From a virus: 44,417 nt of DNA. A program made the translations under genes and the position numbers. Below are positions 525 to 44,228 of this stretch, piece by piece. The stretch is taken from positions 1-44,417 of the IMG/VR virus record IMGVR_UViG_3300048592_001015. One strand, 5' to 3'. The notes under the pieces were generated by a model, which saw nothing but the letters and a program-made list of their open reading frames with translations, was not told the DNA's origin and did no database searches. Within the stretch, counting starts at the first letter, position 1. Each line of letters opens with the position of its first letter.

Positions 525-872
525 TTACGGGCGCGGCGGGGCCACCCCCTGCCACCATGCCGCTAAGGCCGGGGGCAGCACGTCACCAGGGTAGGGAACC
601 CACGGGCGAGAGTCGGGGTCCCGGGTGTCCCCGCCCCAGGTGCGACGAGCGAAAGCGTCCACGGTGCCGGACAGAACGACTTTCCCGTCCCTTGTCACTC
701 GCATCCTGGCCTTGGGACTGACCCCGGTGCTGATCAGGTGACGTGCCGCCTTGTAGAGTCCACCCGGTCCGGTATGCAGTTCACCATCGGAGGTCTCGCA
801 GCGTTCGGTGCGGACAGACGGGCTGGGAACGGCGGGGGGCAGGATGGCGACTCGGACAATGGTGATTTTCAT
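525..872 (-). CDS. Hypothetical protein, 115 aa (last gene of left operon)
   Basis: Not recognised. The ATG at 872 overlaps the stop of the acetyltransferase-like gene by 4 bp (ATGA), which fixes this start; the longer in-frame extension upstream is a shadow of that gene. The protein begins MKITIVRVAILPP and has a basic middle section with RVTRDGKVVLSGTVDAFARR, which resembles a small beta-rich fold. The C-terminus is rich in Pro and Trp. It is the promoter-distal gene of the left operon and ends just before the 456-486 hairpin. Confidence 0.6.
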   Translation of the reverse strand: MKITIVRVAILPPAVPSPSVRTERCETSDGELHTGPGGLYKAARHLISTGVSPKARMRVTRDGKVVLSGTVDAFARRTWGGDTRDPDSRPWVPYPGDVLPPALAAWWQGVAPPRP

Positions 873-1231
873 GCCCGGTTGCTCCAGAAGAAGGAGGGCG
901 GGTCTTGGTTGTCGCGCCACCAGCCCCACTTCTCCATGATGGCGATCATTTCCGGTGTGATTGCGTTCTCCACCTTGATGGCCTCGATATCGCGCCGCGC
1001 CTTGGCCCAGTCGATGATCTCCTTGAAGTAGCCGCGGTTCCGGTTGTTCTCGGTGACCGTGATATTGGCCACGGTGAACCCCTTGAAGGAATTGGCGCCG
1101 ATGCGAATTGGGATCTTGCGCACGTAGACCTTCACTGGCGAACAGTTGATCCACTGAGTGGCCAGGGGGGATTCGTTATACCAACGATCCAGCAGCATCC
1201 GCAGACGCTTTTTCCGCTCACCCTGCGTCAC
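869..1231 (-). CDS. GNAT-like acetyltransferase, 120 aa
   Basis: The segment FKGFTVANITVTENNRNRGYF, followed by a helix (FKEIIDWAKAR) and the VENAITPEMIAIMEKWGWW tail, resembles motifs A and B of small phage GNAT-family N-acetyltransferases: an acceptor strand, an R-x-R-G turn for acetyl-CoA, then a C-terminal strand near an aromatic 'GYW' end. At 120 aa it is short for the family (about 140-160 aa). The substrate is unknown. ATGA overlaps link it to the genes on both sides, so it is translated with them. The assignment rests on motif resemblance only. Confidence 0.65.
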   Translation of the reverse strand: MTQGERKKRLRMLLDRWYNESPLATQWINCSPVKVYVRKIPIRIGANSFKGFTVANITVTENNRNRGYFKEIIDWAKARRDIEAIKVENAITPEMIAIMEKWGWWRDNQDPPSFFWSNRA

Positions 1232-1608
1232 GACCGATCCTCCTCACGCTTGATACCCTGTTCGATCTCGTGGAGCAGCAGGAAGATCCGACTGCACTCG
1301 GCCATCAGCGCCTGCTGGATCATGAAGAGCTCCACAGGATGGTTGGGCTCCTTGGCGTTCCAGCGGTCGACAGTCGCCTGGGTGACCGACGCCACCAGGG
1401 GGGACGCCGGCGACCCGAAGCGGTAGACGCTGGGCTGATCCCGCGTGGCCTTGGTAGCGATGATCGCCAGCCCGCCGGACTTGGACATGGCAATGGGGAA
1501 GTTCTTGCCCTGGGCGCGGAGATCGCGGAGGCGCTGGGCGAACTGGATGCCTGACTTGATCAGGGTTTCGCGGACTTGCTGCTGGGCATCGGCTACGATG
1601 GGATCCAT
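1228..1608 (-). CDS. Hypothetical protein, 126 aa
   Basis: Not recognised. The ATG at 1608 is preceded by CAGGAGCATCCACC, a clear Shine-Dalgarno sequence. The same leader, CAGGAGCATC..CACCATGG, precedes the next gene upstream at 2208, which suggests local duplication of the ribosome-binding region. The protein is soluble, with a central SKSGGLAIIATKATRDQPSVYRF segment and a helical C-terminus ending in an EE/R-rich tail. The stop overlaps the acetyltransferase-like start. Confidence 0.65.
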   Translation of the reverse strand: MDPIVADAQQQVRETLIKSGIQFAQRLRDLRAQGKNFPIAMSKSGGLAIIATKATRDQPSVYRFGSPASPLVASVTQATVDRWNAKEPNHPVELFMIQQALMAECSRIFLLLHEIEQGIKREEDRS

Positions 1609-1623
1609 GGTGGATGCTCCTGT

Positions 1624-2208
1624 TCAGTAGAGGTTGCTGATGATGTCTTGGTTCACACCGTTCTTCTCGAACTCGGTGTAGATCCGGTCCAGGCCCTTGT
1701 AGAAGGCCTCTGGGTCGTAGCCCGGCACGATGGCGCGATACTCGGCGGCGCGCGGGTGGTCATCGAATGCGGTATAGTCGTGGCCCTGGAAGAAGTCGTA
1801 GCAGAGCTCGTTGTCGCCGGTGTTCAGCAGGGCCAGCGAGAACTCGTAGTCGGGCTTGGTGATGGGCACTCGGTTCAGCAGAACCTCCCAGACGCTGGGG
1901 TCGGAGAGCAGGTGCTTGTCATCGCACTCGCCGGCGATACGCTCGAGAACTTCGCCGTAGGACCATTCCTCCCAGAAGTTGATGGACTCCTGGCACTTCT
2001 CCCAGAGAGGGTCCGTGCTGTTGTCTTCGAACAGGAAGTCGTCCGGCTTGGTCTCGATCTGGACAAACTCCTCGTCGGTCAGGCTGCGGAGCATGAAGGC
2101 CCAGGCGCGGATGCCGAAATCGGACCCCACGCCAGACTCGGTCTCACCTTCCGCTTCATACTTGCGGAAGCGTTCGGCTTGTGTCTTGATTCGATCTTCG
2201 GAAACCAT
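1624..2208 (-). CDS. Acidic hypothetical protein, 194 aa
   Basis: Not recognised. The protein is very rich in Asp, Glu, Phe, Trp and Tyr, and is strongly acidic throughout (for example FVQIETKPDDFLFEDNSTDP). It has no signal peptide or membrane segment. Strong acidity in a small early phage protein is seen in some DNA-mimic and anti-defence proteins, but nothing else supports that role here. The ATG at 2208 follows CAGGAGCATCACCACC. A good extended -10 promoter lies 38-70 bp upstream, so this gene can begin its own transcript. Confidence 0.65.
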   Translation of the reverse strand: MVSEDRIKTQAERFRKYEAEGETESGVGSDFGIRAWAFMLRSLTDEEFVQIETKPDDFLFEDNSTDPLWEKCQESINFWEEWSYGEVLERIAGECDDKHLLSDPSVWEVLLNRVPITKPDYEFSLALLNTGDNELCYDFFQGHDYTAFDDHPRAAEYRAIVPGYDPEAFYKGLDRIYTEFEKNGVNQDIISNLY

Positions 2209-2248
2209 GGTGGTGATGCTCCTGTCGTGGCCCCATTGCCACTATGCA

Positions 2249-2277
2249 AACTTACCACGCAGACTAGGTCACGGCAA
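2249..2277 (-). promoter_or_regulatory. Sigma70-type promoter with extended -10
   Basis: On the minus strand TTGCCG (2272-2277), a 17-bp spacer and TGGTAAGTT (-10 TAAGTT at 2249-2254, extended TG-G) point at the gene starting at 2208. The same core, AGTCTNNNTGGTAA-S-TT, recurs at the promoter near 3595, so the two are probably related phage early promoters. Confidence 0.6.
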
Positions 2278-2559
2278 GCCTGAACGGCGCAGGGGGGCCA
2301 CGGTCCCCAAGGGGTCGCGCTGCACATTGTTCACCCAGAGCGCGTCGCTGGCGGCCCCGAACAGGATGGCGGCCCCCATGTAGACTCGGCGGCGCCGCTC
2401 CGAATTGGCGAGGGCGTCCATGTGAATGCGACAGGCGCGCAGCCGGAGGTCGTATTCTTCGGTGCCGATGGCATCTACGACCCGAGCATCCTGGGTGCAG
2501 TCCGGAACCGGGGGGGCCGCGCAGCCCACGAGCCCGATCAACACGATCAACCAGCGCAT
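2269..2559 (-). CDS. Small lipoprotein, 96 aa
   Basis: The N-terminus MRWLIVLIGLVGC is a short hydrophobic signal ending in a lipobox (L-V-G-C, Cys13), so the mature protein should be lipid-anchored in a Gram-negative envelope. A second hydrophobic stretch, YMGAAILFGAASDALWV, lies near residues 60-76. Small phage lipoproteins include outer-membrane spanin subunits and superinfection-exclusion proteins; nothing in the sequence separates these. The ATG at 2559 follows GAGGAGAATTGAC. The previous gene stops one base away, so the two are co-translated. Confidence 0.7.
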   Translation of the reverse strand: MRWLIVLIGLVGCAAPPVPDCTQDARVVDAIGTEEYDLRLRACRIHMDALANSERRRRVYMGAAILFGAASDALWVNNVQRDPLGTVAPLRRSGLP

Positions 2560-2560
2560 G

Positions 2561-2830
2561 TCAATTCTCCTCGGAAAGATGGTTGAACCGCCTGGTCATC
2601 TGGTCCACACTCTCATCGGCTTCCTTGGAAGCGCGGACGTTGATGTAGTCCAGGTCTGCCAGCAGGAACTTCACGCTGAACTCCTCCTTCTCGTCAGCGC
2701 TCCAGTAGGACTGATACTGTTCGAGGAAGTCCCGCATTTCTGCCAGAGCCTTCTCCATGTCGCGCAAGGACTTGGCGGCCTTGCTGTAGATTCGCCGCTT
2801 TTCGCGACGCACTTTCACGGGGATGATCAC
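2561..2830 (-). CDS. Hypothetical coiled-coil protein, 89 aa
   Basis: Not recognised. The start is taken as GTG at 2830, which overlaps the upstream stop as GTGA, rather than a longer form that would run far into the neighbouring gene. The N-terminus is basic (VKVRREKRRIYSKAAK). It is followed by a helix with heptad-like hydrophobics (LRDMEKALAEMRDFLEQYQSYW) and an acidic C-terminus. It is probably a small soluble helical protein. Confidence 0.6.
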   Translation of the reverse strand: MIIPVKVRREKRRIYSKAAKSLRDMEKALAEMRDFLEQYQSYWSADEKEEFSVKFLLADLDYINVRASKEADESVDQMTRRFNHLSEEN

Positions 2831-3108
2831 TCTACATACTCCCAGATGTCGGTAAGGAAGCCGTCCACTTCCCACGGCAGAACCTGCCACGAGCCGTTGA
2901 AGTGCCGGGCGCAGCCGAGCTCCTCGTCGCGAACTTCACCGATGCAGACGCTCTCGAGGTCCTCGAGACTGAGGCTTTCCAAGAACTCCCTGCTCTGTGG
3001 AGTCAGACGAGTCCACTTGGCGAGCGCATACTCCCTGGCTCGGTCCTCCCACGAGTAGCCGCCGTCCGCTTCGAAGAGCGAGATGATCTTGGCCAGACGC
3101 TCGTTCAC
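2827..3108 (-). CDS. Hypothetical protein, 93 aa
   Basis: Not recognised. The GTG at 3108 overlaps the stop of the preceding gene as GTGA; longer in-frame starts would lie inside that gene. The sequence is helical and acidic (LTPQSREFLESLSLEDLESV) with two Cys residues near the C-terminal third and a WQVLPWEVDGFLTDIW segment. It is part of the translationally coupled left operon. Confidence 0.6.
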   Translation of the reverse strand: MNERLAKIISLFEADGGYSWEDRAREYALAKWTRLTPQSREFLESLSLEDLESVCIGEVRDEELGCARHFNGSWQVLPWEVDGFLTDIWEYVE

Positions 3109-3314
3109 GATCCGAGCTCCTGCTGCCTGGGGGGAACGGCGTTCTTGTAGACGGTGAGCACCCAGGGCTTGGAGCCCTTGCCGATCTTCTCCACGATCGC
3201 GGAGAACTTCTCTTCGTGGCACCACCCGAAATAGTCCACGTAGTAGAATCCGTTTGCGCGGATCCAAGCCAGGGCGTCCTCCCGAAAGGCGAAGGTCTTG
3301 CGTTGGTCTTTCAT
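3105..3314 (-). CDS. Hypothetical protein, 69 aa
   Basis: Not recognised. The ATG at 3314 is preceded by GAGGAGTTCTGATC, where the Shine-Dalgarno overlaps the end of the first operon gene. The 69-aa protein begins MKDQRKTFAF and has an ANGFYYVDYFGWCHEEKFSAIVEKI core that suggests a small mixed alpha/beta fold. The stop overlaps the next GTG start by 4 bp. Confidence 0.6.
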   Translation of the reverse strand: MKDQRKTFAFREDALAWIRANGFYYVDYFGWCHEEKFSAIVEKIGKGSKPWVLTVYKNAVPPRQQELGS

Positions 3315-3316
3315 GA

Positions 3317-3568
3317 TCAGAACTCCTCGTCGTTGTATTGGGCGGAATGGGACTCCAGTTGACACAACCGGCGTTCCACGGAGGGACGGACGCACGCCTG
3401 CACGCTCTCGAAGAGCTCCACGTAGAGCGGGCTCAAGAACTTGATACCCGCATCGATCAGGGCGATGTGGGCACCGCCGATGGCGACGCTGAAATCACCG
3501 TGCGGCTTGAAGTTCTCGGAGTAGGCTGCGCGGGCCTTGTGGAAAGCGCGCTTGGCGATATAGGACAT
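3317..3568 (-). CDS. Hypothetical protein, 83 aa (first gene of left operon)
   Basis: Not recognised. The ATG at 3568 is chosen because it sits 27 bp downstream of a well-formed -10 element; upstream in-frame codons fall inside the promoter. The protein begins MSYIAKRAFHKARAAYSE and includes IGGAHIALIDAGIKFLSPLYVELFE, a hydrophobic helix too polar at its ends for a clear membrane anchor. As the first gene after a strong promoter on the arm facing the late genes, it is likely expressed early. Confidence 0.6.
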   Translation of the reverse strand: MSYIAKRAFHKARAAYSENFKPHGDFSVAIGGAHIALIDAGIKFLSPLYVELFESVQACVRPSVERRLCQLESHSAQYNDEEF

Positions 3569-4476: not shown

Positions 4477-4945
4477 ACAGACAGGCGCCAAGGCGCCACG
4501 AAAAGGTTCACTGATACGGACATCGCAGTCAGGCATCGCCGCATTCTCGGTCGCGGCCCTTGACCGGTTTCCGCCACCGGACTTCCTCAACGACATGCAG
4601 AGGAATCTGTGGGTTGCCTCACTGAGCGACATCCCGCTGGAGTTCTTCCGCGCGCGGCACATCCCCATGATGATCCAGTATGTCCGCGCCGTCGCCCTCA
4701 TGATGCACTACAGCGATGCGGTGGCGGAAGACCCGGACGATGCGATCGCAGTGAATGCCTGGGAGCGGATGATCCGTATCTCGAGCAGACTGGAACTCCA
4801 TCTGTCGCTGAACACCGGCAGGCTGATCGATACTATCTCGAGGGCTCGATCGGAGTTCCGCGCTGCCCAGCAGGGCAAGACCGCCAAGGAGGCGGGAGAA
4901 GTCGGCCGCAATTCACGATCGGGGCTCGTCTATGTTAGTGATTAA
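4463..4945 (+). CDS. terS: Terminase small subunit (P27-like), 160 aa
   Basis: The position immediately upstream of TerL, the size, and the helical arrangement (FLNDMQRNLWVASLSDIP, then a long RAVALMMHYSDAVAEDPDDAIAVNAWERMIRISSRLELHLSL helix bundle) fit P27-family small terminase subunits, which recognise the packaging site and hand DNA to TerL. The N-terminus is basic. It overlaps HNH by 14 bp and TerL by 14 bp. No recognisable DNA-binding motif is visible by eye, so the call rests on context and fold-like pattern. Confidence 0.8.
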   Translation: MDRGEQTGAKAPRKGSLIRTSQSGIAAFSVAALDRFPPPDFLNDMQRNLWVASLSDIPLEFFRARHIPMMIQYVRAVALMMHYSDAVAEDPDDAIAVNAWERMIRISSRLELHLSLNTGRLIDTISRARSEFRAAQQGKTAKEAGEVGRNSRSGLVYVSD

Positions 4946-6647
4946 GCGCAGGAAGAAGCCGGACACGGCGTTTCTTCCATCCCAGAAGACTGTGAAGGTC
5001 TCGGACCTGGGGGGTGTCCTCGGGGCCGCTTATACCGCCGTCCAGAACGGTGAAGGGCCGACCAAGCGGAAGGCGCACGCGGAGGTCAAGAAGCCCCGCG
5101 TTCCTGCCGAGATGCCGATCGAGGAGAAGATGATCTCCTTTATCGAGACCCTCAAAGTCCCAGACGGCCCGGACGTCGGCAAGTTGATCGTGCTGCGCGA
5201 TTGGCAGAAGCGTATGATCAGGCAAGTCTACGGGCCGACCCGCAAGAACGACAAGGGCGAGACCATCCGCGCAGTCCGCCAAGCCATCTGGACCATGGCC
5301 CGCAAGAACGGCAAGACGTCGCTGGCCGGGGGGCTCATCCTGGGGCACCTGACCGGCCCCTGCGCGATTTGGAACGGTCAGCTCTTCAGCGTGGCGTTCG
5401 AGGTCGGACAGGCGGCGCTCGCATACCGCGCGTTCCAGAGCATGGTTTTGCAGGACGAGGACTTGGCTGGCCGCATCATCCTCACAGAGTCCAGCAAGCG
5501 GGCGACGTGCCAGATGTCCAACAGCGTCTTTCGCGCGCTGTCTTCGGAGTCCCGCTCCAAGCACGGCTTGAACCCGAACTTCGTTCTGTTCGACGAGTTC
5601 TCACAGTTTGGGATCGACAGGGCGCTGTTCGACGTCATGACGACGTCCATGGGCGCGCAGAAGGAACCGCTGTCTTTGATCATCAGCACCCAGGCAGCGG
5701 ACGACTCTGCCGTCCTCAGCGAGCAGATCGACTACGGCAGGCAGATCCACAGGGGGGAGATCAAGGATCCGACTTTCCACCTCACGGAATACTCCCTGCC
5801 ACCTGAGGAGGACCCGTTCAACGAGAAGAAGTGGCATCTGGCGAACCCGGCCCTGGGGGACTTCAGAAGCCTCGACGAAATGAGACTCTATGCCGCACGG
5901 GCTCGCCGGCTGCCGTCGATGATGAACTCATTCCGGAATCTCTACCTCAACCAGCGGGTAGCCCAGAAGTCCACACTCATCGACGAGGTCACCTGGGCGA
6001 AGTGCGTTGGGGACATCGACTACGACTCGCTGGAGGGTCGCTCCTGCACGGCGGGCCTTGACCTGTCGTCTAAGGTCGACCTGAGCTCGCTGGTGCTGAT
6101 CTTCGACGACCCCCCGTTTGAGGTCGTGCCGTTCTTCTGGACACCGAAGAACACTCTCGAGGAACGCACGAAGCGCGACCGCGTTCCCTACGAGCGGTGG
6201 GTCGAGAACGGTCACATGGAAGCCGTGCCGGGGAACGCAATCGACTTCCGGTTTGTCACCCAGCGCATCGCCGAGCTCTCGGCCATCTACAATATCCGGG
6301 TGATTGGATTTGACCGTTGGCGCATCGACGTCTTGAAGACTTGGTTTGACGAATACGGGGTGGACATCCCCATGATGCCCATTGGCCAGGGATACAAGGA
6401 CGGAACCCTGATGGTGGAAAGGATCGAGGAAGCCCTCCTGAATAACTCGATCGTTCATGACAACCATCCCGTGCTGAAGTGGAATGCCATGAACGTCCAG
6501 GCCACCCGCGACCCGGCGGGGAACAGGAAGTTCGACAAGTCCAGCAGCACCGCGAGAATCGACGGATTTGTTGCGATGGCCATGGCTCTTCGGGTTAAGG
6601 AAATGGTGGAAGACACCGGGGGGACGCTGCCGATTGCCGTAATTTGA
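4932..6647 (+). CDS. terL: Terminase large subunit (HK97-type, Terminase_1), 571 aa
   Basis: This is the packaging motor ATPase and nuclease. Walker A is ARKNGKTS (123-130) and Walker B is NFVLFDEF (Asp221-Glu222). A LSLIISTQA segment near 247-255 is the likely coupling motif. The C-terminal RNase H-like nuclease starts with AGLDLSSKVDLSSL (about 368-381) and includes VIGFDRWRID. Length is typical. The start ATG 4932 overlaps TerS. The N-terminus MLVIKRRKKP shares a basic motif with several unrelated proteins of this phage (see findings). Confidence 0.95.
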   Translation: MLVIKRRKKPDTAFLPSQKTVKVSDLGGVLGAAYTAVQNGEGPTKRKAHAEVKKPRVPAEMPIEEKMISFIETLKVPDGPDVGKLIVLRDWQKRMIRQVYGPTRKNDKGETIRAVRQAIWTMARKNGKTSLAGGLILGHLTGPCAIWNGQLFSVAFEVGQAALAYRAFQSMVLQDEDLAGRIILTESSKRATCQMSNSVFRALSSESRSKHGLNPNFVLFDEFSQFGIDRALFDVMTTSMGAQKEPLSLIISTQAADDSAVLSEQIDYGRQIHRGEIKDPTFHLTEYSLPPEEDPFNEKKWHLANPALGDFRSLDEMRLYAARARRLPSMMNSFRNLYLNQRVAQKSTLIDEVTWAKCVGDIDYDSLEGRSCTAGLDLSSKVDLSSLVLIFDDPPFEVVPFFWTPKNTLEERTKRDRVPYERWVENGHMEAVPGNAIDFRFVTQRIAELSAIYNIRVIGFDRWRIDVLKTWFDEYGVDIPMMPIGQGYKDGTLMVERIEEALLNNSIVHDNHPVLKWNAMNVQATRDPAGNRKFDKSSSTARIDGFVAMAMALRVKEMVEDTGGTLPIAVI

Positions 6648-35522: not shown

Positions 35523-36439
35523 CACTTCACCCCATACATGCGCGCCGCGTGGAACCAGTCGCAGTCCGGGAACACGTCCAGGATCGACAGGTCCTTCTGG
35601 TGCCACGCCGCGAGCATGGGAAGGACCACGTTGTCGATGAAGCGGTTGCCAGACTCACACGGCTCGAAGTCCGGCTTGCCGTCTTCCGAGAGCCGCATGA
35701 ACAACATGTTCAGTTCCTCGACGAGGTCCTTCGTATCCAGCGGAACGACCGGGGGGTAGGGGATCACCTGCACGAAGTCCAGCATCCCCTTGCCCGGCCC
35801 GAAGTCCAGGTAGATGTGGGCGTTCGTGCTGATCTGGTGCAGGAAGCCGACGCGGACGCCGACGCAGGCCGCGATGTATTCCTGGAGGAAGGAGAACTGC
35901 ACGATGTTCGCGCCGAGCATTCCCCAGAGGAGGTCGTTGCTGCGGTTGAAGACGGTGAGGTCCAGCCCCCCGTTGACGATACGCAGGTTGATGTGAACGT
36001 TGCAGGGAATGTCCCTGCTCTCGGCGCCCAGGTCGTCGTTCGAGTTCCAGATGGCCATCGTCACACGGCGGCTGCCCGGCTGTTCGCGCAGCATCTGGAT
36101 CGCTTCCGGGATCTGGTCGGCGAGCCGCTTGCCGTAGTGACCACGGAGGGTCACGCCATCGTCGCTGTATTCCCGAAACCGGGGGGTGATGTCGGTGAAT
36201 GGCTTGAGCAGGTTCACCCTGGACAGGATGCTCAGCCCGTCCAGCAGAAAGAGGAACGGGTTGGCGCGGCGGCGCGGGCAGAGCAGGACCCGCTTGACGG
36301 GGTTTGCTGTCGTGACCGTGAGCGGCAGCGGGTAGGAAACGACCCGGCCGTTCCGGCTCACCTCCTCGATACCCTCCTGCCGGAGGCGGTGCGGCAGGAC
36401 GCTGATCGCGTGGTTGACGTTTTCGTATTGGACATGCAT
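35522..36439 (-). CDS. Thymidylate synthase / dUMP hydroxymethylase family protein, 305 aa
   Basis: Thymidylate-synthase superfamily: YGKRLADQI, SRR (124-125), WN, catalytic Cys146 in DIPCN, RSND (166-169), Asn178 in GANIV and His208-x-Tyr210. Asn178 matches the residue that selects dUMP over dCMP. Unlike true TS, Cys is followed by Asn not His. The usual catalytic Glu in 'ELLWFL' is Asp67 in NPFLFLLDGL. The Trp-containing cofactor segment is replaced by FREYSDDG. It may therefore make 5-hydroxymethyl-dUMP rather than dTMP. ATG 36439 follows CAGGAGGGCCTCAACG. Confidence 0.85.
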   Translation of the reverse strand: MHVQYENVNHAISVLPHRLRQEGIEEVSRNGRVVSYPLPLTVTTANPVKRVLLCPRRRANPFLFLLDGLSILSRVNLLKPFTDITPRFREYSDDGVTLRGHYGKRLADQIPEAIQMLREQPGSRRVTMAIWNSNDDLGAESRDIPCNVHINLRIVNGGLDLTVFNRSNDLLWGMLGANIVQFSFLQEYIAACVGVRVGFLHQISTNAHIYLDFGPGKGMLDFVQVIPYPPVVPLDTKDLVEELNMLFMRLSEDGKPDFEPCESGNRFIDNVVLPMLAAWHQKDLSILDVFPDCDWFHAARMYGVK

Positions 36440-36467
36440 CGTTGAGGCCCTCCTGGTGGCCGGGGTT

Positions 36468-36475
36468 ACACTAGC
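36468..36475 (-). promoter_or_regulatory. Candidate extended -10 promoter of the TS-like gene
   Basis: The minus strand reads TGCTAGTGT (-10 TAGTGT at 36468-36473, TG one base upstream), overlapping the end of the glycosyltransferase gene. It lies 29 bp before ATG 36439, with the CAGGAGGG ribosome-binding site between. The -35 is weak. Confidence 0.38.
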
Positions 36476-37250
36476 ACGGGGCAGCGGCGAACGCACGCTT
36501 CCACGCTATCTTGACTTCGAGTCTTGTTGGGTTCTTGAAGCCTCTCCAGTTCGTGTTGTCCTTCTCCACCAGGGACACGAAGTCCGGGTGCAGACGGTAG
36601 AGTTCCCTGGCGGCGCTGTCCGCCATCTCTTCCGTGCGGTAGGTCGCGCACCCCCCACGGGCATTGGAGGCGCCGACTTGGTCCTGGGCGTATTCGTAGA
36701 TCACGCAGTTCGCCAGACGGTTCCGCAGGAGCTGGAGTGTCATGTCGAAGTCCTGCTTCGCCGGCACCCGATCGAACCGGCACGAGGGGGGAACCCGGCT
36801 CCGGTCGTATGCCAGGAATCGCATCATCCGCTCGTTGATCTGGTGCGGCTCCGGCTTGCGGTTGTTCCCCTCCCTGGCGCTGATGCCGACATGGGCAAAC
36901 CGCTGGAGCTTCGACCGGACCATGGCCATCATATCGGCGATGTCGGACGGCTTGGCGTCCAGGAGCTTGGAACGGTCGTCCGGGTTCTTGCGGCTGAACC
37001 GGAGATCGTCATCGCAGAGAATCATGAATCGTGTTTCGCAATTCTCCAGGAGCCATTGCCTCGTCGGGGAGAGGCTCTTGATCTCCTTGGGCAGCCGAAG
37101 GACCGGGACGGCCGGATACTTCATGCGGTGAAACTCGAACTCGTGCGCCTGCACGACGAGGACAGGGGTGACGCCCCCCGCCCGTAACGCGATCAGAGTA
37201 GGCTGGTTGTCCACGCGCCCCAGCGTGTGGATATAGACGGTCAGTTCCAT
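36471..37250 (-). CDS. GT-A type glycosyltransferase (TAGT-like), 259 aa
   Basis: MELTVYIHTLGRVDNQPTLIALRAGG..PVLVVQAHEFEFHRMK opens a Rossmann-like nucleotide-sugar fold. SPTRQWLLENCETRFMILCDDDLRFSRK contains Asp80-Asp81-Asp82, the D-x-D metal/UDP-sugar site. This layout resembles the TET/JBP-associated glycosyltransferases (TAGT) that glycosylate hydroxymethylated bases in phage DNA. The C-terminal half (FDRVPAKQDFDMTLQLLRN) should bind the acceptor. The start overlaps the end of the HMUDK-helical gene by 10 bp, which ties the two together. The acceptor is inferred. Confidence 0.72.
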   Translation of the reverse strand: MELTVYIHTLGRVDNQPTLIALRAGGVTPVLVVQAHEFEFHRMKYPAVPVLRLPKEIKSLSPTRQWLLENCETRFMILCDDDLRFSRKNPDDRSKLLDAKPSDIADMMAMVRSKLQRFAHVGISAREGNNRKPEPHQINERMMRFLAYDRSRVPPSCRFDRVPAKQDFDMTLQLLRNRLANCVIYEYAQDQVGASNARGGCATYRTEEMADSAARELYRLHPDFVSLVEKDNTNWRGFKNPTRLEVKIAWKRAFAAAPC

Positions 37251-38119
37251 CCTGCGAACTCCCTGTAGCGCGACCGAACGGACCCCTCGCCGTTCTTCAG
37301 TCGCTGATACTTGTCATACTCGCACATCACGTTCTGGGTGTCCATAAGCTCCAGTCGGTCATAGATGTGCGGCAGGCGAGCGGCGCCCCTGGCATGGGCC
37401 AGCCGCAGCACGTCTAACCACTCGTTATAGGGCATTCCTGCGCCAGGGGGCTGTCCTACAAGGCGGTTCACCCCCCGCTTGCTACCGGGGCCTTGCGGCG
37501 CCCACGACAGCCTGTCCGACCACGGAAGCTCGTGATGGATATGCCGGAGATCGGCGACCGCCTGCCCTGCCATGAACGATCCAATGCCGGGCTTGCCGTT
37601 GAGCCAATCCCAGACCTCGCGCATCGTCTGCGGGTGCTTCGGTGCCGTGCGCCTCGCCGCCCAGAGGGGGGCCAGGACCTTCCGCGTCACCTGGAGGATC
37701 TTGTCTCCGCCCAGCGCCCCGTTGATGATGTAGGCGCCCGTGAACACCTTCTCGCGACGAGCCTTGCGCTTGAGCAGCACCATCGTCCACTGATACTCGT
37801 CGTAGGGGGCGGGGTAGGGAAGGGCTTGCAGCGACGGCGGCCAGTTGATCAGGCGCCCCCCGACCGCGGCCACCATGCGATTCTGCAGGCCGATCTCTGG
37901 GTGGGTCTGGTGCCAGCGCAGGAGCCAATGGCTGACTCGGTCGTCCATGCGGCGGACGTTGCACCAGCGATAAGCGGTGAACAGGGAATCCTGGCTCCAG
38001 GGTTTGGGATCGTTATTCTCCCTTCGTGCCCTGACCTTCTCCCTTTCTTCGACCCAATAGCACATCGCATCCAATTGGTCGGGCTGGATGCGGTCGCCTC
38101 TACGGCGTATTATCTTCAT
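37241..38119 (-). CDS. 5-hmdU DNA kinase helical domain / aGPT-PPlase-like protein, 292 aa
   Basis: MKIIRRRGDRIQPDQL precedes CYWVEEREKVRARRENNDPKPWSQDSLFTAYRWCNVRRMDDRVSHWL (20-66), the N-terminal signature of the HMUDK-helical/aGPT-PPlase family. PGIGSFMAGQAVADL (177-191) is a helix-hairpin-helix-like turn, and GPGSKRGVNRL (210-220) is the second hallmark. The fold is DNA-glycosylase-like, and the family is tied to phage thymidine hypermodification through 5-hydroxymethyl-dU. No P-loop kinase is fused here. ATG 38119 follows GGAGGGGCCC. Confidence 0.78.
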   Translation of the reverse strand: MKIIRRRGDRIQPDQLDAMCYWVEEREKVRARRENNDPKPWSQDSLFTAYRWCNVRRMDDRVSHWLLRWHQTHPEIGLQNRMVAAVGGRLINWPPSLQALPYPAPYDEYQWTMVLLKRKARREKVFTGAYIINGALGGDKILQVTRKVLAPLWAARRTAPKHPQTMREVWDWLNGKPGIGSFMAGQAVADLRHIHHELPWSDRLSWAPQGPGSKRGVNRLVGQPPGAGMPYNEWLDVLRLAHARGAARLPHIYDRLELMDTQNVMCEYDKYQRLKNGEGSVRSRYREFAGWN

Positions 38120-38137
38120 GGGCCCCTCCAAACGAAA

Positions 38138-38165
38138 CGAGGGGGGCAGTTTCCCACCCCCCTCG
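38138..38165 (-). terminator. G6/C6 hairpin between acidic-protein gene and HMUDK-helical gene
   Basis: CGAGGGGGG (38138-38146) pairs perfectly with CCCCCCTCG (38157-38165) around CAGTTTCCCA. Read on the minus strand, it is followed by TTTCGTTT, a usable T-rich tail. It should end most transcripts of the abundant acidic protein. Confidence 0.7.
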
Positions 38166-38187
38166 CTCACGCGCCGATCATCAGCGA

Positions 38188-38838
38188 TCAGGTGATGCTG
38201 ATGTAGCCCTGCTTGAGGCAGTGACCGGCGAAGCCGCGCGGCGTGGCGAGCTCGGCCTCGGAGGCCTTCTTGATGAACTCGCCGACCGTCTTGCACTTCT
38301 GGATCATCGCCCACTTCGCGGCGCGGCCGGTGCCCTCCTGGAACTTCGCGTCCTTCTTCAGCACCGTGATCTTCTGGTCGTCCTTGATCTTCGGCTCACG
38401 GGGCGGCGGGGCGCGCTTGGCCTTCGGGGCCTCCGCTTCCTCCTCGTCCTCGGCGGGCGCGGCCTTGGTCTTCACCTTGGCCTTCGCCGACTTCTTGGGC
38501 GGCGGGGCGGGCTCCTCCTCGGCTTCCTCCTCGGCCTCCTCCTCGTCGGCCTCCTCCTCGTCCTCGGACTCCTCGGTCTCCTCCTCGTCCTCCTCCGGCT
38601 CCGGCTCCGGCGCGGCCTTGGCCTTGGTCTTGACCTTCGCCTTGGCCTTCTTCTCGTTCAGGACGAAGTTCCCCTCGTCATCGGTCGAGAGGACCAGGCC
38701 CTTGGTCTCGAGGATCGCGGCGAGCTCCTTGCGGCCGGTCGCGACGTTCTTGACCTTCGTGGCCTTGCCGTTCACCTCGGTGAGGATGTCGGCCAGATCG
38801 GACGCGTCCAGCTCGTTGATGTCGACTTCGTTCGGCAT
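38188..38838 (-). CDS. Acidic low-complexity phage protein, 216 aa
   Basis: Three parts. Residues 1-60 (MPNEVDINELDASDLADILTEVNGKATKVKNVATGRKELAAILETKG) are folded. About 60-150 is a disordered Glu-rich segment flanked by repeated KAKVKTKA motifs. The C-terminal 65 residues (KITVLKKDAKFQEGTGRAAKWAMIQKCKTVGEFIKKASEAE..GHCLKQGYISI) match a domain common in phages and prophages. Codon use is as GC3-extreme as the capsid gene, and it has its own strong promoter and terminator. I infer abundant expression, perhaps a DNA- or nucleoid-binding role. Function unknown. Confidence 0.75.
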   Translation of the reverse strand: MPNEVDINELDASDLADILTEVNGKATKVKNVATGRKELAAILETKGLVLSTDDEGNFVLNEKKAKAKVKTKAKAAPEPEPEEDEEETEESEDEEEADEEEAEEEAEEEPAPPPKKSAKAKVKTKAAPAEDEEEAEAPKAKRAPPPREPKIKDDQKITVLKKDAKFQEGTGRAAKWAMIQKCKTVGEFIKKASEAELATPRGFAGHCLKQGYISIT

Positions 38839-38886
38839 TGGAATCTCCTGGGTTGCCGGTCTGCCGGGAACTACCCGGCCATTTTC

Positions 38887-38915
38887 AATATACCCTAGTG
38901 ACGGGTCGGTTGCAA
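38887..38915 (-). promoter_or_regulatory. Strong sigma70 promoter for the acidic-protein gene
   Basis: On the minus strand TTGCAA (38910-38915), a 17-bp spacer and TATATT (38887-38892) precede the ATG at 38838, with CCCAGGAG as ribosome-binding site. It is the closest match to the sigma70 consensus found in the window. A GGGGG...CCCCCC pairing just upstream (about 38915-38935) may terminate the dUTPase transcript. Confidence 0.75.
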
Positions 38916-38924
38916 GGGGGGAAA

Positions 38925-39353
38925 TTAGGCCCCCGTGCTGCCGAAGCGGCCTTCTCCCCGAGCGGACGGGGTCAGCGCTTCCACGTAGTCGATCTCCGCC
39001 CGGATGAACGGAGCGAGGACCGCCTGGGCGATACGGTCCCCCCGCTTGACGTGGTATATCACGTCGCCCACGTTCATGAGGACGATCATCAGTTCCCCCC
39101 GGTAGTCGTAGTCCAGGGTGCCGGGCGAGTTCAGCACGAAGATCTTGTGCTTCGCCGCCATGCCGCTCCGGCTGCGGATCTGGAGCTCGTGGCCATGAGG
39201 GACCTCGAACATCAGGCCGGTCTTGAAGATGTGGTGCATCCTGGGATACAGAATTCCGTCCTCGGCAGACGGGATGTCCATGCCCGCCGCTCCATCCGTC
39301 GCGTAGGACGGAAGGGCGACAGCGTGGGCTAGAGTGGCGACACGTATGATCAC
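38925..39353 (-). CDS. dut: dUTPase (trimeric type), 142 aa
   Basis: All five motifs of trimeric dUTP diphosphatases are present: I ATDGAAGMDI (18-27), II RSRSGMAAKH, III GTLDYDYRGEL with the catalytic Asp, IV GDRIAQAVLAP, and V GEGRFGSTGA at the C-terminus. It hydrolyses dUTP to dUMP and pyrophosphate, keeping U out of DNA and supplying dUMP to the thymidylate-synthase-like enzyme encoded 2.5 kb downstream. GTG 39353 overlaps the preceding stop. Confidence 0.95.
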   Translation of the reverse strand: MIIRVATLAHAVALPSYATDGAAGMDIPSAEDGILYPRMHHIFKTGLMFEVPHGHELQIRSRSGMAAKHKIFVLNSPGTLDYDYRGELMIVLMNVGDVIYHVKRGDRIAQAVLAPFIRAEIDYVEALTPSARGEGRFGSTGA

Positions 39354-39616
39354 GGGTGCTCCCTCCGGCCGACGGTGCCGGGCTGGAATCCGGGCGTCCT
39401 GGTGTTGTCCAGCACGATGGCCGGGATGGTGGAGTCGATGACCACGCGCTGCACGTCGAAGAACTTCCCCTCGCGCTCGGTGCCATCGTCCTTGACGGGC
39501 GGGCTCAGCAGGAGCTGGGTGCAGCCGCTCAGGTATTCCACGACCGCGGTGATGCGACCCTTGAATCCGGTGACCTTGTCGGAGGCCATGAAACCGAGCA
39601 GGTTATCGTTTCGCAT
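39350..39616 (-). CDS. Hypothetical protein, 88 aa
   Basis: Function not recognised. The pattern DKVTGFKGRITAVVEYLSGCTQLLLSPPVKDDGTEREGKFFDVQRVVI is shared by many small phage proteins ('v.gf.G.vta...yl.GC.q..l.P.....g.....w.d...') and suggests a small beta barrel. ATG 39616 overlaps the upstream gene by 14 bp. It lies directly before dUTPase. Confidence 0.65.
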   Translation of the reverse strand: MRNDNLLGFMASDKVTGFKGRITAVVEYLSGCTQLLLSPPVKDDGTEREGKFFDVQRVVIDSTIPAIVLDNTRTPGFQPGTVGRREHP

Positions 39617-39845
39617 TTCGCTTGAGTTCCTCGTATAGGGTTGGGTGCGTGAACAGGGTGTTCCCCATCACGTAGGTGATAGGCGTGATCTTGACTTTGA
39701 ATTCACCTCCATATCGCTTGACGAGTTTCTTGTGGATCCGTGCGCTGCGATGCCGCGACGCAGGGAACAGGCGCTCTTCGGAGACGGTGATTCGGACAGC
39801 GTGCTGGCTGACGACGATCTTCATCCCGAGGAACGAGTTGATCAC
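39603..39845 (-). CDS. Hypothetical protein, 80 aa
   Basis: Not recognised. GTG 39845 overlaps the upstream stop (GTGA); ATG 39824 (MKIVVSQHAVRITVSEERLF) is an alternative. Basic, with PASRHRSARIHKKLVKRYGGEFKVKITPITYVMGNTLFTHPTLYEELKRNAKR, it probably has a strand-helix-strand layout. It may bind nucleic acid, on charge alone. Confidence 0.55.
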   Translation of the reverse strand: MINSFLGMKIVVSQHAVRITVSEERLFPASRHRSARIHKKLVKRYGGEFKVKITPITYVMGNTLFTHPTLYEELKRNAKR

Positions 39846-40021
39846 TCAGGCTTTTCCTTCTTCCACTCGCCGCACCAGTCGGTCGGCTTGACGGCGGGCC
39901 AAGATGACTTCGTGAAGTTGTAGCCCTCGATCGGCACCGGCGGATATCGTCGGCACTCGTAGGGATCGACGGCCAGCATTCCCTCCTTGCGCCACTGGCA
40001 GGTCCGACACTCGCGGTTCAT
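39842..40021 (-). CDS. Cys-rich zinc-binding-like protein, 59 aa
   Basis: MNRECRTCQWRKEGMLAVDPYECRRYPPVPIEGYNFTKSSWPAVKPTDWCGEWKKEKPE: Cys-x2-Cys, a third Cys and a fourth in DWCGEW form a 4-Cys zinc-ribbon-like pattern often seen in small phage proteins ('C.tC.....g.....CrryPP.........WP.v...dwCGew'). Function unknown. ATG 40021 overlaps the stop of the next Cys-rich gene. Confidence 0.65.
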   Translation of the reverse strand: MNRECRTCQWRKEGMLAVDPYECRRYPPVPIEGYNFTKSSWPAVKPTDWCGEWKKEKPE

Positions 40022-40374
40022 TGCATCACCGCGAAACAGCCGACGGTCTCGCAGGCAGCGTGCAGATGACCGTTGCGGGACGACCTGAAATAGGTGATCG
40101 TCTTGCCGCAGTTCGGGCAGGGCATCTTGCCGGACGGCCCAGGGGGGATGCTGTTCACGATGCGAAGGCTGTTCTGCAGCGACTCGTCCATCGCCTTTCG
40201 CCAATCGTCGACTTCCGCTTGCGTCGGCATGTCCCGATGCTGGCAGCTCCCCCCTCCGGTGCGACTGCACGGCCACGTCTTCGGCGGGTCATTGCCGAGC
40301 GTCAGATACGGGATGCCTGCCCGGCAGACCGGGTTGAGGATCCCATTGTAGTTCTTGCACCAGTTGATATTCAT
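40018..40374 (-). CDS. Cys-rich phage protein, 118 aa
   Basis: Two Cys clusters: N-terminal WCKNYNG..PVCRAGIPY and CSRTGGGSCQHRDMPT, then the CPNCGKT..HAACETVGCF ribbon at the C-terminus. The layout (C-x-N-Y-x-x-x..C-x-A-G-I, 'pT.aE...w', 'CP.CG') occurs in many siphovirus early regions and likely binds two zinc ions. The function is unknown. Its link to the 59-aa Cys protein (ATGA) suggests the two act together. Confidence 0.65.
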   Translation of the reverse strand: MNINWCKNYNGILNPVCRAGIPYLTLGNDPPKTWPCSRTGGGSCQHRDMPTQAEVDDWRKAMDESLQNSLRIVNSIPPGPSGKMPCPNCGKTITYFRSSRNGHLHAACETVGCFAVMQ

Positions 40375-40709
40375 GGCTGTCCCAGGACCTCCCGGCAGTA
40401 GACATCGAGCGCCGCTTTCGCGGCTTTTCGATTGTCGTAGGGACCATGGCTGTTCGCCCAGGTCTCGTCCCAGAACCACCACTTCCCCTCGTGCATGTGC
40501 AGGGGGTCGTTCGGCAGGGTGTGGCCTAGCGCCGCGACGATCGCCTTCACAGCCTCGTAGTGCATGAGGATGATGGCGCGCGAGGAGGGGGGCTTGCGCT
40601 GACCCTGCGCCTGCTCGTGCCTCGCCATCTCCGTGCGGAACTTGAACATAGCGCGAGCCAGCGGCTCGTCCTTGTCCATGTAGAGTTCGAATGCTTCGTC
40701 TTCGGTCAC
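40371..40709 (-). CDS. Hypothetical protein, 112 aa
   Basis: Not recognised. GTG 40709 is fixed by its GTGA overlap. TEDEAFELYMDKDEPLARAMFKFRTEMARHEQAQGQRKPPSSRAIILMHYEAVKAIVAALGHTLP, then a Trp-rich KWWFWDETWANSHGPYDNRKAAKAALDVYCREVL. The C-terminus resembles an AP2/integrase-like 'G.y......A..A...y' segment, but this is weak. Confidence 0.55.
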   Translation of the reverse strand: MTEDEAFELYMDKDEPLARAMFKFRTEMARHEQAQGQRKPPSSRAIILMHYEAVKAIVAALGHTLPNDPLHMHEGKWWFWDETWANSHGPYDNRKAAKAALDVYCREVLGQP

Positions 40710-41014
40710 GACACCAGCCTCAGCTTGAGTTTCTCGGTCGGCAGATAGCGGTGCGGCTGAACTCCGCCCGCGTGATAAAGCATGGGGGGCGCCCGCTTGA
40801 GGCAGACGCGATACCACGCGTCGCGCATGGCTGCCGACTCGGTGTTGAACGGTCCCCCCTCGCTGGTCCCGTGCATCCAATACCAGCCGCAGAAGATCGG
40901 CGGCTCGTTGATGGGCTTCATGGAGTTCCAGATCTTGACTGTCGCTCGATTGGCGTAGGTGAAATGCACCCGCGCCGTGACGAGGGCCTTTTGGATTTCG
41001 TCGGTGAGTTTCAC
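40706..41014 (-). CDS. Hypothetical protein, 102 aa
   Basis: Not recognised. The start is GTG 41014, with GGAGG 9 bases upstream inside the preceding small gene. VKLTDEIQKALVTARVHFTYANRATVKIWNSMKPINEPPIFCGWYWMHGTSEGGPFNTESAAMRDAWYRVC: the 'GGPF.te.AA..da.y' part resembles small phage domains with a C-terminal helix. It is basic towards the end. Confidence 0.55.
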   Translation of the reverse strand: MKLTDEIQKALVTARVHFTYANRATVKIWNSMKPINEPPIFCGWYWMHGTSEGGPFNTESAAMRDAWYRVCLKRAPPMLYHAGGVQPHRYLPTEKLKLRLVS

Positions 41015-41172: not shown

Positions 41173-41173
41173 C

Positions 41174-42043
41174 TCAGTCCTCCCTGATGCCGAGAAACAC
41201 GGGGAACCTCGGCTTGTCCTTGATCCCCGTGGGTTGGAACTTGAACTTGATCTGCTTGCCGATGGGGGGATTCTTCCACAGACGGGCGCGCGTCGCCTCG
41301 TCCATGCCGGTGCCGATCTCGAACTGCACTCCCCCCGGCAATCTGCAGACCAGGGTGCCGGTCGTGCCCTTGGCGGTCTTTCCCGCCTTGTGGCTCGTCC
41401 GCTTCATGTAGCCGAGCTCGTTGGGCTTCGCCTCGTTCCCGTTGTGCATCTGCTCCACGATCCCGATGCACTCGGCCTCTGCGTCTTCGAACCGCTTCAC
41501 CTTGCAGAGCCACTTGTCGGTCTTGCCGCTGCGACCGTGCTTGTAGAGGCCCTCCGGATTGCGGACCATCACGCCCTCGTAGCCCTTCTCGAGGCAGATG
41601 GCTTCGTAGCGATCCAGGTGATTCCGGTTGCGGATCACGACATGCTTGAGCGGCCGGATGCGGATGAGCTCGTCCGGATCGGGGTCGATCGGCGATGGTA
41701 GATTCGCCAGCCTGCTGACATAGGGATGGTCTGGCATGTCCCAGCGATCGAAGACCCAGAACGTCACCTGGGGGGTGCCCCCCTCGCTCATGACCGCACT
41801 CGTGGTGCGATGGAAGACGCCCTGGCCGGTGGACAACCCGGCGACGAGCTCCCCGTCGTAGCCGTGGAAGTATCGCTGGCCGAGCCATTGCTGGACATAC
41901 GAATTGGGGATGTCCTTGAGCTTCCGGCTGACGAGGCGGCCATCCATGTTCAGCGCCCGCACCCCGTCCAGTTTCGGACTGGCCAGGAGTGGGAACCTGA
42001 GTTCGTCCAGGGTCTTGGGCGTGTAGGCGAGCATCGGCTTCAT
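41174..42043 (-). CDS. ATP-dependent DNA ligase, 289 aa
   Basis: Nucleotidyltransferase motif I SPKLDGVRA with Lys24 (the AMP-accepting residue) and Arg29, motif III-like FHGYDGELV, motif IV YEGVMVRNPEGLYKHGRSGKTDKWLCKVKR, and a C-terminal OB-like domain (GTLVCRLPGGVQFEIGTGM..IGKQIKFKFQ). It seals nicks using ATP; its length is that of compact phage or bacterial LigD-like ligases. ATG 42043 overlaps the upstream stop (ATGA). It would complete repair or replication with PolA. Confidence 0.92.
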   Translation of the reverse strand: MKPMLAYTPKTLDELRFPLLASPKLDGVRALNMDGRLVSRKLKDIPNSYVQQWLGQRYFHGYDGELVAGLSTGQGVFHRTTSAVMSEGGTPQVTFWVFDRWDMPDHPYVSRLANLPSPIDPDPDELIRIRPLKHVVIRNRNHLDRYEAICLEKGYEGVMVRNPEGLYKHGRSGKTDKWLCKVKRFEDAEAECIGIVEQMHNGNEAKPNELGYMKRTSHKAGKTAKGTTGTLVCRLPGGVQFEIGTGMDEATRARLWKNPPIGKQIKFKFQPTGIKDKPRFPVFLGIRED

Positions 42044-42707: not shown

Positions 42708-42726
42708 ACGGCCAAGGTGGTCTAAA

Positions 42727-42751: not shown

Positions 42752-42764
42752 CCCAGAATGCGGT

Positions 42765-43532
42765 TCAGCGGTCCTCGTCGCTGAGGTCCGCGGCCTTCGC
42801 GATTCCGCCCTTGACGGCGTTGTAGAACTCCTTCGCCCGCCGGTAGAACTGCTGCCCGTTCTTCATCTCCAGCGTCGGCTTGTAGACCGTCACGCTGGGG
42901 ATCCAGAAGTCGCCCTTGTCGTTGCTGTCGGCGACCGCCGTCATCGTGTAGCAGTTGAACCAGAACGGCATCTGGACTTCCTCGCCGGTCTGCGGGTGCG
43001 TCTGCCGCTGGCTCATGATCAGCGTGTTCCATCGCTTGCTGACCGCGGCCTTCTTCCCGGTGAGGCTGAGCACGACCGGAATGTTCGTCCCATCCTCCTC
43101 GATCACGACCAGGGCGTAGTATTCGGGGGTGACCACGATCTCCGTGTCGTTGTCGGTCAGGAACACGCCCGCGTTCTTCCGCTCCAGGCCCTCCGTCTCC
43201 TCCTCGGGGACATCCATCCGGACCAGCCCCCCGCCGGAGTCGATCGGGTTCCACTCGATCAGCCGCCGCTGATACACGAGCGGGATGATATGGATCCCCT
43301 CCTCGCCGTCGAAGAGCTTCTGCAGGCTGGCGATGCAGAACATGCCGCCGGTCGCACCCCGGATGAACTCGGGACGGTTCTTCTTCGTGACCTTGCTCAT
43401 CTCATGGAGCAGGGTCAGCCGCGGGATGATCAGGTCCTGGGCGCGGACGTTCTCCGTTCCCATCCCCGCATCGGCAAACGGGTCCACGTCGCGCACGGCG
43501 ACTTCGGTCTTGGTCTTCTTGATCACGGCCAT
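42765..43532 (-). CDS. Conserved phage protein, possibly ssDNA-binding-like, 255 aa
   Basis: I do not recognise a named function. ATG 43532 gives MAVIKKTKTEVAVRDVDPFADAGMGTENVRAQDLIIPRLTLLHEMSKVTKKNRPEFIRGATGGMFCIASLQKLFDGEEGIHIIPLVYQRRLIEW. This 'D..iPrl.LlQ..S.......i.GA..G.f......l.....i..iP....+..ieW' pattern is widespread in siphovirus replication regions, and some members are annotated as ssDNA-binding-like. The beta-rich centre and an acidic C-terminus (AADLSDEDR) are compatible with an OB-fold SSB, but not proof. GC3-rich codon use and its own terminator suggest abundance. Confidence 0.7.
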   Translation of the reverse strand: MAVIKKTKTEVAVRDVDPFADAGMGTENVRAQDLIIPRLTLLHEMSKVTKKNRPEFIRGATGGMFCIASLQKLFDGEEGIHIIPLVYQRRLIEWNPIDSGGGLVRMDVPEEETEGLERKNAGVFLTDNDTEIVVTPEYYALVVIEEDGTNIPVVLSLTGKKAAVSKRWNTLIMSQRQTHPQTGEEVQMPFWFNCYTMTAVADSNDKGDFWIPSVTVYKPTLEMKNGQQFYRRAKEFYNAVKGGIAKAADLSDEDR

Positions 43533-43536
43533 GGTA

Positions 43537-43848
43537 TCAATCCTCGATGTCGCGGTTGTGGAGACGGAAGAATCCCGTTCCAGTGAAGTCCCCGGTCTTG
43601 GCCAGCTCCCGCAGGAGCGTGGTGACGGGGATCGCTTCCTCCCAACGCGGGGGGAATTGACGCTGGTCGCCCCAGTCCGTCGCCGGCAGGGGCTGGTCAC
43701 GCTGCGGATCCACGAGCTGGAACCGGACGTCGCCCTTGGGGAACCGGAAGCAGGAGATCAACAACATAGGATTGATCCCCCAATTCTCGAACTTGGCGCT
43801 CTTGAACACCTGGACGAGCTGCCGTCCATCGGCATTCTCGAAGATCAC
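43537..43848 (-). CDS. Hypothetical protein, 103 aa
   Basis: Not recognised. GTG 43848 overlaps the upstream stop (GTGA). MIFENADGRQLVQVFKSAKFENWGINPMLLISCFRFPKGDVRFQLVDPQRDQPLPATDWGDQRQFPPRWEEAIPVTTLLRELAKTGDFTGTGFFRLHNRDIED: mixed alpha/beta, acidic C-terminus. It is encoded directly before the 255-aa conserved protein, with 4 bp between, and is probably co-translated. Confidence 0.58.
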   Translation of the reverse strand: MIFENADGRQLVQVFKSAKFENWGINPMLLISCFRFPKGDVRFQLVDPQRDQPLPATDWGDQRQFPPRWEEAIPVTTLLRELAKTGDFTGTGFFRLHNRDIED

Positions 43849-44228
43849 CGCGTTCCCGTTGTATCGGGATCCCACGTGACGAAATCCGGATTGCTGTGGA
43901 TGACGTCGCGATTCTTGAAGTCGGGCAGGTCGGTGAGCCATTCGGTGACTTTCCTTTCTCCGGTCCGGATGAACCCGAACTCGGTTGGGTGGGATCCAAA
44001 CCGGATACGACGCTCGTTGGCAATCGCAATCACGGCCGGGATACGGTCGGGCCGGATCATCACGATCCGATACCGCAGGGGGGAGTTCTTGGTTCGGAAG
44101 ACCCGCGCCCCCCTGATCCGTTCGGCTTCGAGGAGGGGATAGTGGTCGATCTCCACCCACTCCTCGGGTCCAGGCGGCGTCGGCTTGTCGGGATCGTCCC
44201 CCGGCCGTCGTCGACGTATGACCTTCAC
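43845..44228 (-). CDS. Hypothetical protein with MKVIRRR N-terminus, 127 aa
   Basis: Not recognised. GTG 44228 overlaps the preceding stop. It begins MKVIRRRRPGDDPDKPTPPGPEEWVEIDHYPLLEAERIRGARVF, sharing the short basic N-terminal motif with the HMUDK-helical protein (MKIIRRRGD). The rest looks like a folded alpha/beta domain (LRYRIVMIRPDRIPAVIAIANERRIRFGSHPTEFGFI). Confidence 0.58.
   Translation of the reverse strand: MKVIRRRRPGDDPDKPTPPGPEEWVEIDHYPLLEAERIRGARVFRTKNSPLRYRIVMIRPDRIPAVIAIANERRIRFGSHPTEFGFIRTGERKVTEWLTDLPDFKNRDVIHSNPDFVTWDPDTTGTR

Follow-up and report, generated by a model that had tools for sequence, protein, structure and literature searches.

Over-represented and oriented DNA sites in phages are a feature of a known kind. 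In chromosomes with dif and FtsK, the FtsK orienting polar sequences (KOPS), like other replication-skewed oligomers, are oriented by replication arm and read by a translocating protein. Chi in phages is a short G-rich site that occurs above the expectation from composition and may be oriented with replication (Bobay et al. 2013, PMC3784561). The T7 primase site, 5'-(G/T)2GTC-3', lies on the lagging-strand template, is rich in G and T, depends on its flanks and is used about once per Okazaki fragment (PMC12839067), and the nick sites of T5, phiKMV-like and tf phages are a strand-specific short consensus along the phage genome (PMC3517423). Here we analyzed the G runs of a 44,417-base virus record, IMGVR_UViG_3300048592_001015 (this whole stretch is the window below), and of its relatives. 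These phages keep a G-run site about every 0.6–1 kb, made of exactly six G or, in the cousin phage G008, of CGGGGGA. On the plus strand such sites extend over the entire record, and on the minus strand they are dense over roughly one half.

An exact count over the whole window gave 28, 72 and 1 plus-strand G runs of length five, six and seven (the latter at 2510). The plus-strand C runs of the same lengths, i.e. the G runs of the minus strand, number 37, 44 and 1 (the latter at 473), and both strands together carry 116 exact six-G sites. This recount agrees exactly with an earlier note on this DNA, which had counted by hand 73 G runs of six or more, one of them a seven near 2510, and 45 such C runs with one seven at 473–479; its estimate of about thirty five-G runs was close.

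The plus-strand ladder extends from 834 to 44083 with a mean gap of 601 bp. Its gaps are far more even than random placement allows: over the whole window their coefficient of variation (CV) is 0.47 where random placement gives 0.98 on average, none of 5000 simulations being as even, only 4 gaps are below 200 bp for 20 expected, and the largest gap is 1518 bp for 2920 expected. Even spacing, as the earlier note had proposed, is thus well supported. In the stretch on which it had relied, from 3959 to 24881, the 34 sites, the mean gap of 634 and the maximum of 1126 stood, while the minimum is 192 rather than 193. Departures from evenness are the gaps of 34 and 155 bp (26014/26048/26203), 192 bp (19460/19652) and 197 bp (40587/40784). 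The note had missed the minus-strand half of the pattern: from 24 kb on the C6 sites (minus-strand six-G sites as read on the plus strand) are also even (n = 31, mean gap 639, CV 0.43, 0/5000 as even). Those before 24 kb are not evenly placed (n = 14, CV 0.78, p 0.30).

To the codon-preserving shuffle that the note had called for, the pattern did not yield. We generated 1000 synonymous shuffles of 65 genes out of the 69 called; the 13 G6 and 7 C6 sites that fall in no called gene were left unchanged, which makes this null conservative. The window has 72 exact G6 for 29.7±3.7 after shuffling (max 41) and 44 C6 for 20.4±3.2 (max 31), with a single G run of seven or more for 6.6 (min 1); the gap CV of G6 is 0.46 for 0.95, the lowest of the 1000 shuffles being 0.59. 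Moreover 13 of the 73 plus-strand G-run sites fall outside called genes, and the remainder are distributed across all codon phases; all three phases are used on both strands. Codon bias is rejected on these grounds. A sequencing or assembly artefact is rejected as well, since contigs from numerous separate samples show the pattern too and their long open reading frames are uninterrupted.

Relatives were searched with the HK97-like terminase large subunit (TerL; 4938–6647, plus strand, query from 4932), which found ten (75–86% identity), and with the family A DNA polymerase (32057–33949, minus strand), which found eight (71–84%). All show the same six-run excess, the sole longer run being a C run of at least nine in L011. 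In 22 clade sequences (312,237 bases, both strands) the G runs of length 3, 4, 5, 6, 7 and 9 number 6969, 1533, 405, 655, 4 and 1, and six-runs outnumber five-runs in 18 of the 22 loci; the exceptions (six:five) are L001 (26:26), L006 (31:32), L008 (9:10) and L004 (8:15). The flanks of six-runs also differ from those of five-runs in these sequences: C at -3 has a frequency of 0.42 vs 0.32, C or G at -2 of 0.83 vs 0.63, A or C at -1 of 0.84 vs 0.68, and A at +1 of 0.42 vs 0.37. The context preferred by six-runs reads C-[CG]-[AC]-GGGGGG-not G.

In alignments of about 73% nucleotide identity, 108 of the 289 places aligned for exact six-runs retain the run; for five-runs the figure is 13 of 127, for four-runs 114 of 506 and for three-runs 915 of 2619. 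A first comparison of aligned sites had given 53 of 144 for G6 and 30 of 84 for C6. The conservation that the note had anticipated is thus real in that six-runs are kept far oftener than five-runs, and it fails for the individual site: most single six-run sites turn over between relatives. One that does not is site 33565 in the polymerase gene, which is six G in all seven aligned relatives. Plus-strand evenness recurs in the related contigs G001–G005 and G007, where 0–11 of 5000 simulations matched it. Minus-strand sites are even in G005 (0/5000), give 65/5000 in G003 with its six sites, and show no evenness in the other four contigs (G001, G002, G004, G007), which have few such sites or sites of varying density.

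Outside the clade, not a single one of the 165 phage contigs analyzed (2.17 Mb in total, many AT-rich) has more six-runs than five-runs, the ladder is absent from distant polymerase relatives (35–39% identity), and L033 shows a mild six-run excess (10 vs 4.5). Named phages with related replication genes have no five- or six-G ladder in the first 50 kb of YuA, Ab18, Carpasina and DL60 or in the whole of BUCT555. A filter for k-mers both even and enriched, applied to 104 other contigs, returned 16 rows from four contigs: L178 (an AGGAGGT type, which we read as Shine-Dalgarno-like), L033 (a 5-bp tandem array), YuA L128 (AGGAGCTG) and L042 (GAAGAA). Separately, Pseudomonas phage Ab18 (L129) carries CCTGGGC 78 times, compared with 34 in codon-shuffled versions (200 shuffles, max 51), with a gap CV of 0.72, possibly a weaker ladder in a named phage. 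Together, the shuffle, the relatives and the clade specificity bear out selection for a DNA motif, the note's general suggestion.

The window belongs to a tailed phage. Its plus strand encodes an HK97-like terminase, portal and capsid (~4.6–25.9 kb), and its minus strand carries the genes for replication and nucleotides (~26.2–44.4 kb) along with small genes at 0.5–3.6 kb. The exact six-G sites divide differently between the strands along it. From 0.5 to 22.25 kb (500–22250) 33 are on the plus strand and 10 on the minus strand, and from 22.25 to 44.4 kb the ratio is 39:34. A two-rate fit places a dense minus-strand arc at 22.25–44.25 kb, i.e. 49.5% of the record, with near-background density elsewhere; the minus-strand ladder runs from 22496 to 44113, and the arc holds 34 of the 44 exact minus-strand sites of the window. 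The structural part of five relatives shows the same plus-strand bias (103:43 pooled, p 7e-7; G001 17:9, G002 26:6, G003 20:6, G004 23:11, G007 17:11). On the replication side of G005 the ratio is 40:37, and in the last 4.7 kb of G002, which match plus-strand tail genes, it is 9:9.

This layout is independent of the direction of transcription. The stretch of minus-strand genes that precedes TerL holds 22 sites in the window and four relatives taken together; all are on the plus strand and hence antisense. The minus-strand genes of the window concerned (525–3568) have antisense plus-strand sites and zero exact minus-strand sites, which makes the orientation of replication separable from that of transcription. 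Transcription is not the cause because minus-strand sites are dense in the plus-strand genes of G002 and absent from the minus-strand genes near TerL. The note had seen the plus-strand sites continue through minus-strand genes, and rightly so; its option of an RNA motif does not survive the same 22:0 count, by which a transcription or mRNA signal is rejected. In favor of such a signal, some sites pair as short hairpins, several of them terminator-like in intergenic gaps, and the dense minus-strand arc of G008 begins near a change of gene direction. An RNA-level signal, codon bias and artefact are nevertheless largely refuted, and we regard this whole class of explanations as very improbable. 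A packaging site, another of the note's options, is disfavored since sites on one strand would be expected.

Concerning the pairs themselves, a G6 followed by a C6 within 50 bp was found 33 times for one pair in reverse order (window and L001–L018). Short pairs lie at 8553–8572, 30363–30378, 34329–34360, 38141–38162, 41770–41783 and other places in the window; some extend into terminator-like hairpins in intergenic gaps, with stems likewise of exactly six. Hairpins were rejected as the full explanation of the sites, most of which have no G6-then-C6 partner.

The cousin phage G008 (IMGVR_UViG_3300048587_000396, 57,115 bases), whose terminase is 60% identical to that of the window, has a ladder of a different form. 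Its genome is probably complete since a 37-base direct repeat with one mismatch lies at its ends. It has 132 exact five-G runs, with C at -1 in 89 and A at +1 in 101. CGGGGGA has 40 plus-strand and 28 minus-strand copies, and 27 of the latter lie in 25.25–54.75 kb, i.e. 52% of the genome. Looser minus-strand motifs are similarly confined: GGGGGA for 38 of 42 in 24–55.5 kb and any exact five-run for 45 of 58 in 25.25–55.5 kb. Within the dense arc the minus-strand GGGGGA sites are even (2 of 5000 simulations), and minus-strand sites continue across a block of plus-strand genes at 28.6–32.3 kb (8 minus, 6 plus).

On the plus strand of G008, GGGGGA alone is weakly even (CV 0.79, 204/5000). It is nearly missing from 14.5–21 kb (one site for ~6.7 expected), and six-G sites occupy this hole. 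When both motifs are pooled the plus-strand ladder has 77 sites with a CV of 0.59 (0/5000 as even) and no gap above 1861 bp (0/5000). In our reading, either this six-G block was acquired from a six-G phage or both forms of the motif are read. In both cases phages with the two motifs seem to exchange DNA, which makes the phage a likelier determinant of the motif than the host. Likewise the reader of the site is more likely encoded by the phage because a six-G block sits inside an otherwise GGGGGA genome.

From these data we consider it highly probable that selection acts on a replication-oriented DNA site as such. As for the function of this site, the best explanation in our view, which we put forward tentatively, is a lagging-strand priming site read by a primase. 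The G run would mark the lagging-strand template, and a primase would start Okazaki fragments at it; a gap beyond about 1.5–2 kb would be costly and a second site nearby useless, so that both large and small gaps would be avoided. If theta replication started near coordinate 0, proceeded in both directions and ended near 20–25 kb, the site would be needed on one strand in the arm copied rightward and on the other strand in the arm copied leftward. Later rolling-circle forks, all running one way, would call for plus-strand sites everywhere. If the two arms are copied in opposite directions, the strand of the sites should switch over half of the genome, which agrees with the layout in the window and in G008. 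We infer the origin, the rolling circle and the fork directions. Candidate origins are a noncoding region at 110–525 of the window, with direct and inverted GCAAC/GTTGC repeats and a CCTGGC array beside it, and one at 55.86–56.1 kb in G008, with a long inverted repeat containing GTTGCC; both lie near the outer arc edges. Close to the latter, at the arc edge, G008 encodes at 53472–54302 a Toprim_3 protein (E 1.6e-11) that matches the phrog_510 DNA primase (E 7e-13).

Several points weigh against priming. It would be unusual for a primer to start opposite G, and the avoidance of seven G is not accounted for by a simple subsequence reader. Primase recognition sites in the published work consulted are of 3–5 nt; the T7 sites that were screened are clustered and up to ~6 kb apart (PMC12839067). 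The borders of the arc in the window are loose, its start lying anywhere from 6 to 29.75 kb within 2 log units, and the skew at third codon positions is uninformative, the replication arms not being visible in it. In G008 the left arc border is near a gene-direction change, and the 14.5–28.5 kb block, where 14 six-G sites of the 18 on the plus strand are found (p 3e-6), has limits that were set after viewing the data. Scans of all 69 called genes of the window (68 with Pfam, and one, 38925–39281, with PHROGs only) revealed neither a primase nor a fragment of one, and the G008 primase had zero tblastn matches in the window or in the other loci compared. Lastly, a Chi-like site predicts an identical strand layout.

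A primase gene may be missing from the window. The record may be a fragment and seems cut at its right end, since the relative in G005 of its last gene, which seems to run off that end, is longer. An alignment search with the Pam3 gp34-like protein for contigs spanning the missing part found only G005, G008 and two distant contigs, and a search of genome contigs for the host gave a single match of 24% identity, in a bacterium. The structure model of the G008 primase was unusable (predicted local distance difference test, pLDDT, 35), and a sequence search against solved structures gave nothing for two G008 proteins.

That a Chi-like site is present instead is possible, and nearly as likely as priming. 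A host enzyme of the RecBCD or AddAB type, or a phage equivalent, would switch from degrading to recombining at the G run, and many replication-oriented copies would be selected in phages that need concatemers and have no recombinase. The scans recognised no recombinase among the 69 called genes; because the final Pfam scans showed neither primase nor recombinase in the window, we slightly lowered the weight of priming and slightly raised that of Chi. Orientation with the leading strand would yield the same two-arm layout, so that the primase site and the recombination site suggested by the note both fit it. The G-run site is over-represented here, by the codon shuffle and in the 22 clade sequences, as is Chi in recombinase-less or concatemer-requiring phages, most strongly in T5-like and P1-like ones (PMC3784561). 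Known Chi sites are mostly GC-rich and of 5–8 nt, and Chi is oriented with replication in some hosts but not in P. syringae (PMC5959072). However, a single-strand reader should also accept seven G, and cousin phages between which DNA seems to pass have different motifs, which suggests a reader set by the phage. Lambdoid Chi is concentrated between the replication genes and the terminase while the G-run sites are evenly spread, and their density of ~1.6 per kb on one strand exceeds the 0.2 per kb of the 8-mer Chi in recombinase-less lambdoids, a weak argument as the motif lengths differ (PMC3784561). The portions of the Chi literature examined make no mention of even spacing.

Two further kinds of explanation were considered. 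Site-specific nicking, like the localised single-strand interruptions in the DNA of T5, phiKMV-like and tf phages, would likewise produce a short strand-specific consensus along the genome; phage tf, with a 46 kb genome and two converging gene sets, has 14 nicks whose consensus is on the top strand only (PMC3517423). Its sites are however few and on one strand, whereas the window has 116 exact ones and uses the two strands over half of its length, and no nickase was recognised; we hold nicking to be improbable. Slightly less so, although still unlikely, is another fork-travelling or DNA-organising reader, i.e. a helicase loader, a polar translocase guide of the KOPS type, a single-strand binding or condensing protein or a processive base-modifying enzyme. 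The strand layout suits any fork-oriented protein and the phage carries a DNA hypermodification gene cluster, but modification enzymes need neither strand arms nor a ladder and no protein points to such a role. The Pam3 gp34-like protein (phrog_2402, function not assigned; 42765–43532, minus strand, 43% identical to its G008 counterpart) has no usable fold match: its model is weak (pLDDT 59), no PDB match reached E≤0.001 (best E 0.2), and the sequence search against solved structures gave E 0.14 or worse.

The rest of the window contains other features. The replication module includes an SNF2-type helicase (28294–29718, minus strand). The DNA hypermodification cluster (35034–39281) comprises an HD nucleotidase-like protein, a thymidylate-synthase-like protein, a TET-associated-type glycosyltransferase (TAGT) and a 5-hydroxymethyldeoxyuridine (5-hmdU) DNA kinase, with a dUTPase nearby; G008 has a radical SAM/SPASM protein in addition. 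This cluster suggests a modified pyrimidine. The proteins encoded at 39350–41014 are 82–100% identical to those of G005; this stretch is probably a recent exchange because the flanking genes reach 55–84%. At the left end of the record (1–109) a CCTGGC array has 18 perfect copies, and contigs G001–G003 begin near the matching place; the array may halt assembly or be a genome end. GAGCTC occurs 51 times in the whole window, and AGCTG and AGCTA are depleted.

A more elaborate proposal is that the ladder is a built-in ruler for Okazaki fragments, in which a phage primase would use an unusually long G-run site of exact length and so force the genome to retain one per 0.6–1 kb of each lagging-strand template, motif and reader would co-evolve (six G in one branch, CGGGGGA in another), and the strand map would reflect theta followed by rolling-circle replication. 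We consider this doubtful in its entirety. Should the replication-oriented reading of the sites hold, the replication mode (origin, end point, theta then rolling circle) could be read from raw phage sequence, and the places of lagging-strand priming, or those where a recombination enzyme switches, would be visible as a ladder kept by selection. Phages with a similar gene set but a different form of the site should then differ in the reading protein, which offers a comparative test.

In the titles and abstract openings of the open-access work searched, we did not find an even ladder of exact-length homopolymers with two strand domains and a changed motif in a cousin. The known systems each differ from it in part. 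KOPS are oriented by arm, whereas the phages here, of 44–57 kb, carry sites on the plus strand throughout and on the minus strand in a single arm. The E. coli Chi is an 8-mer at ~0.2 per kb, in contrast to an evenly spaced, exact-length homopolymer that reaches ~1.6 per kb on one strand and is altered in the cousin (PMC3784561). The 14 nick sites of tf are on one strand, whereas 34 of the 44 minus-strand exact sites here are gathered in 22.25–44.25 kb (PMC3517423). The T7 primase site has a core of 3–5 nt, while the site described here is of six nt or more, strongly enriched and arranged as an even ladder of 0.6–1 kb (PMC12839067).

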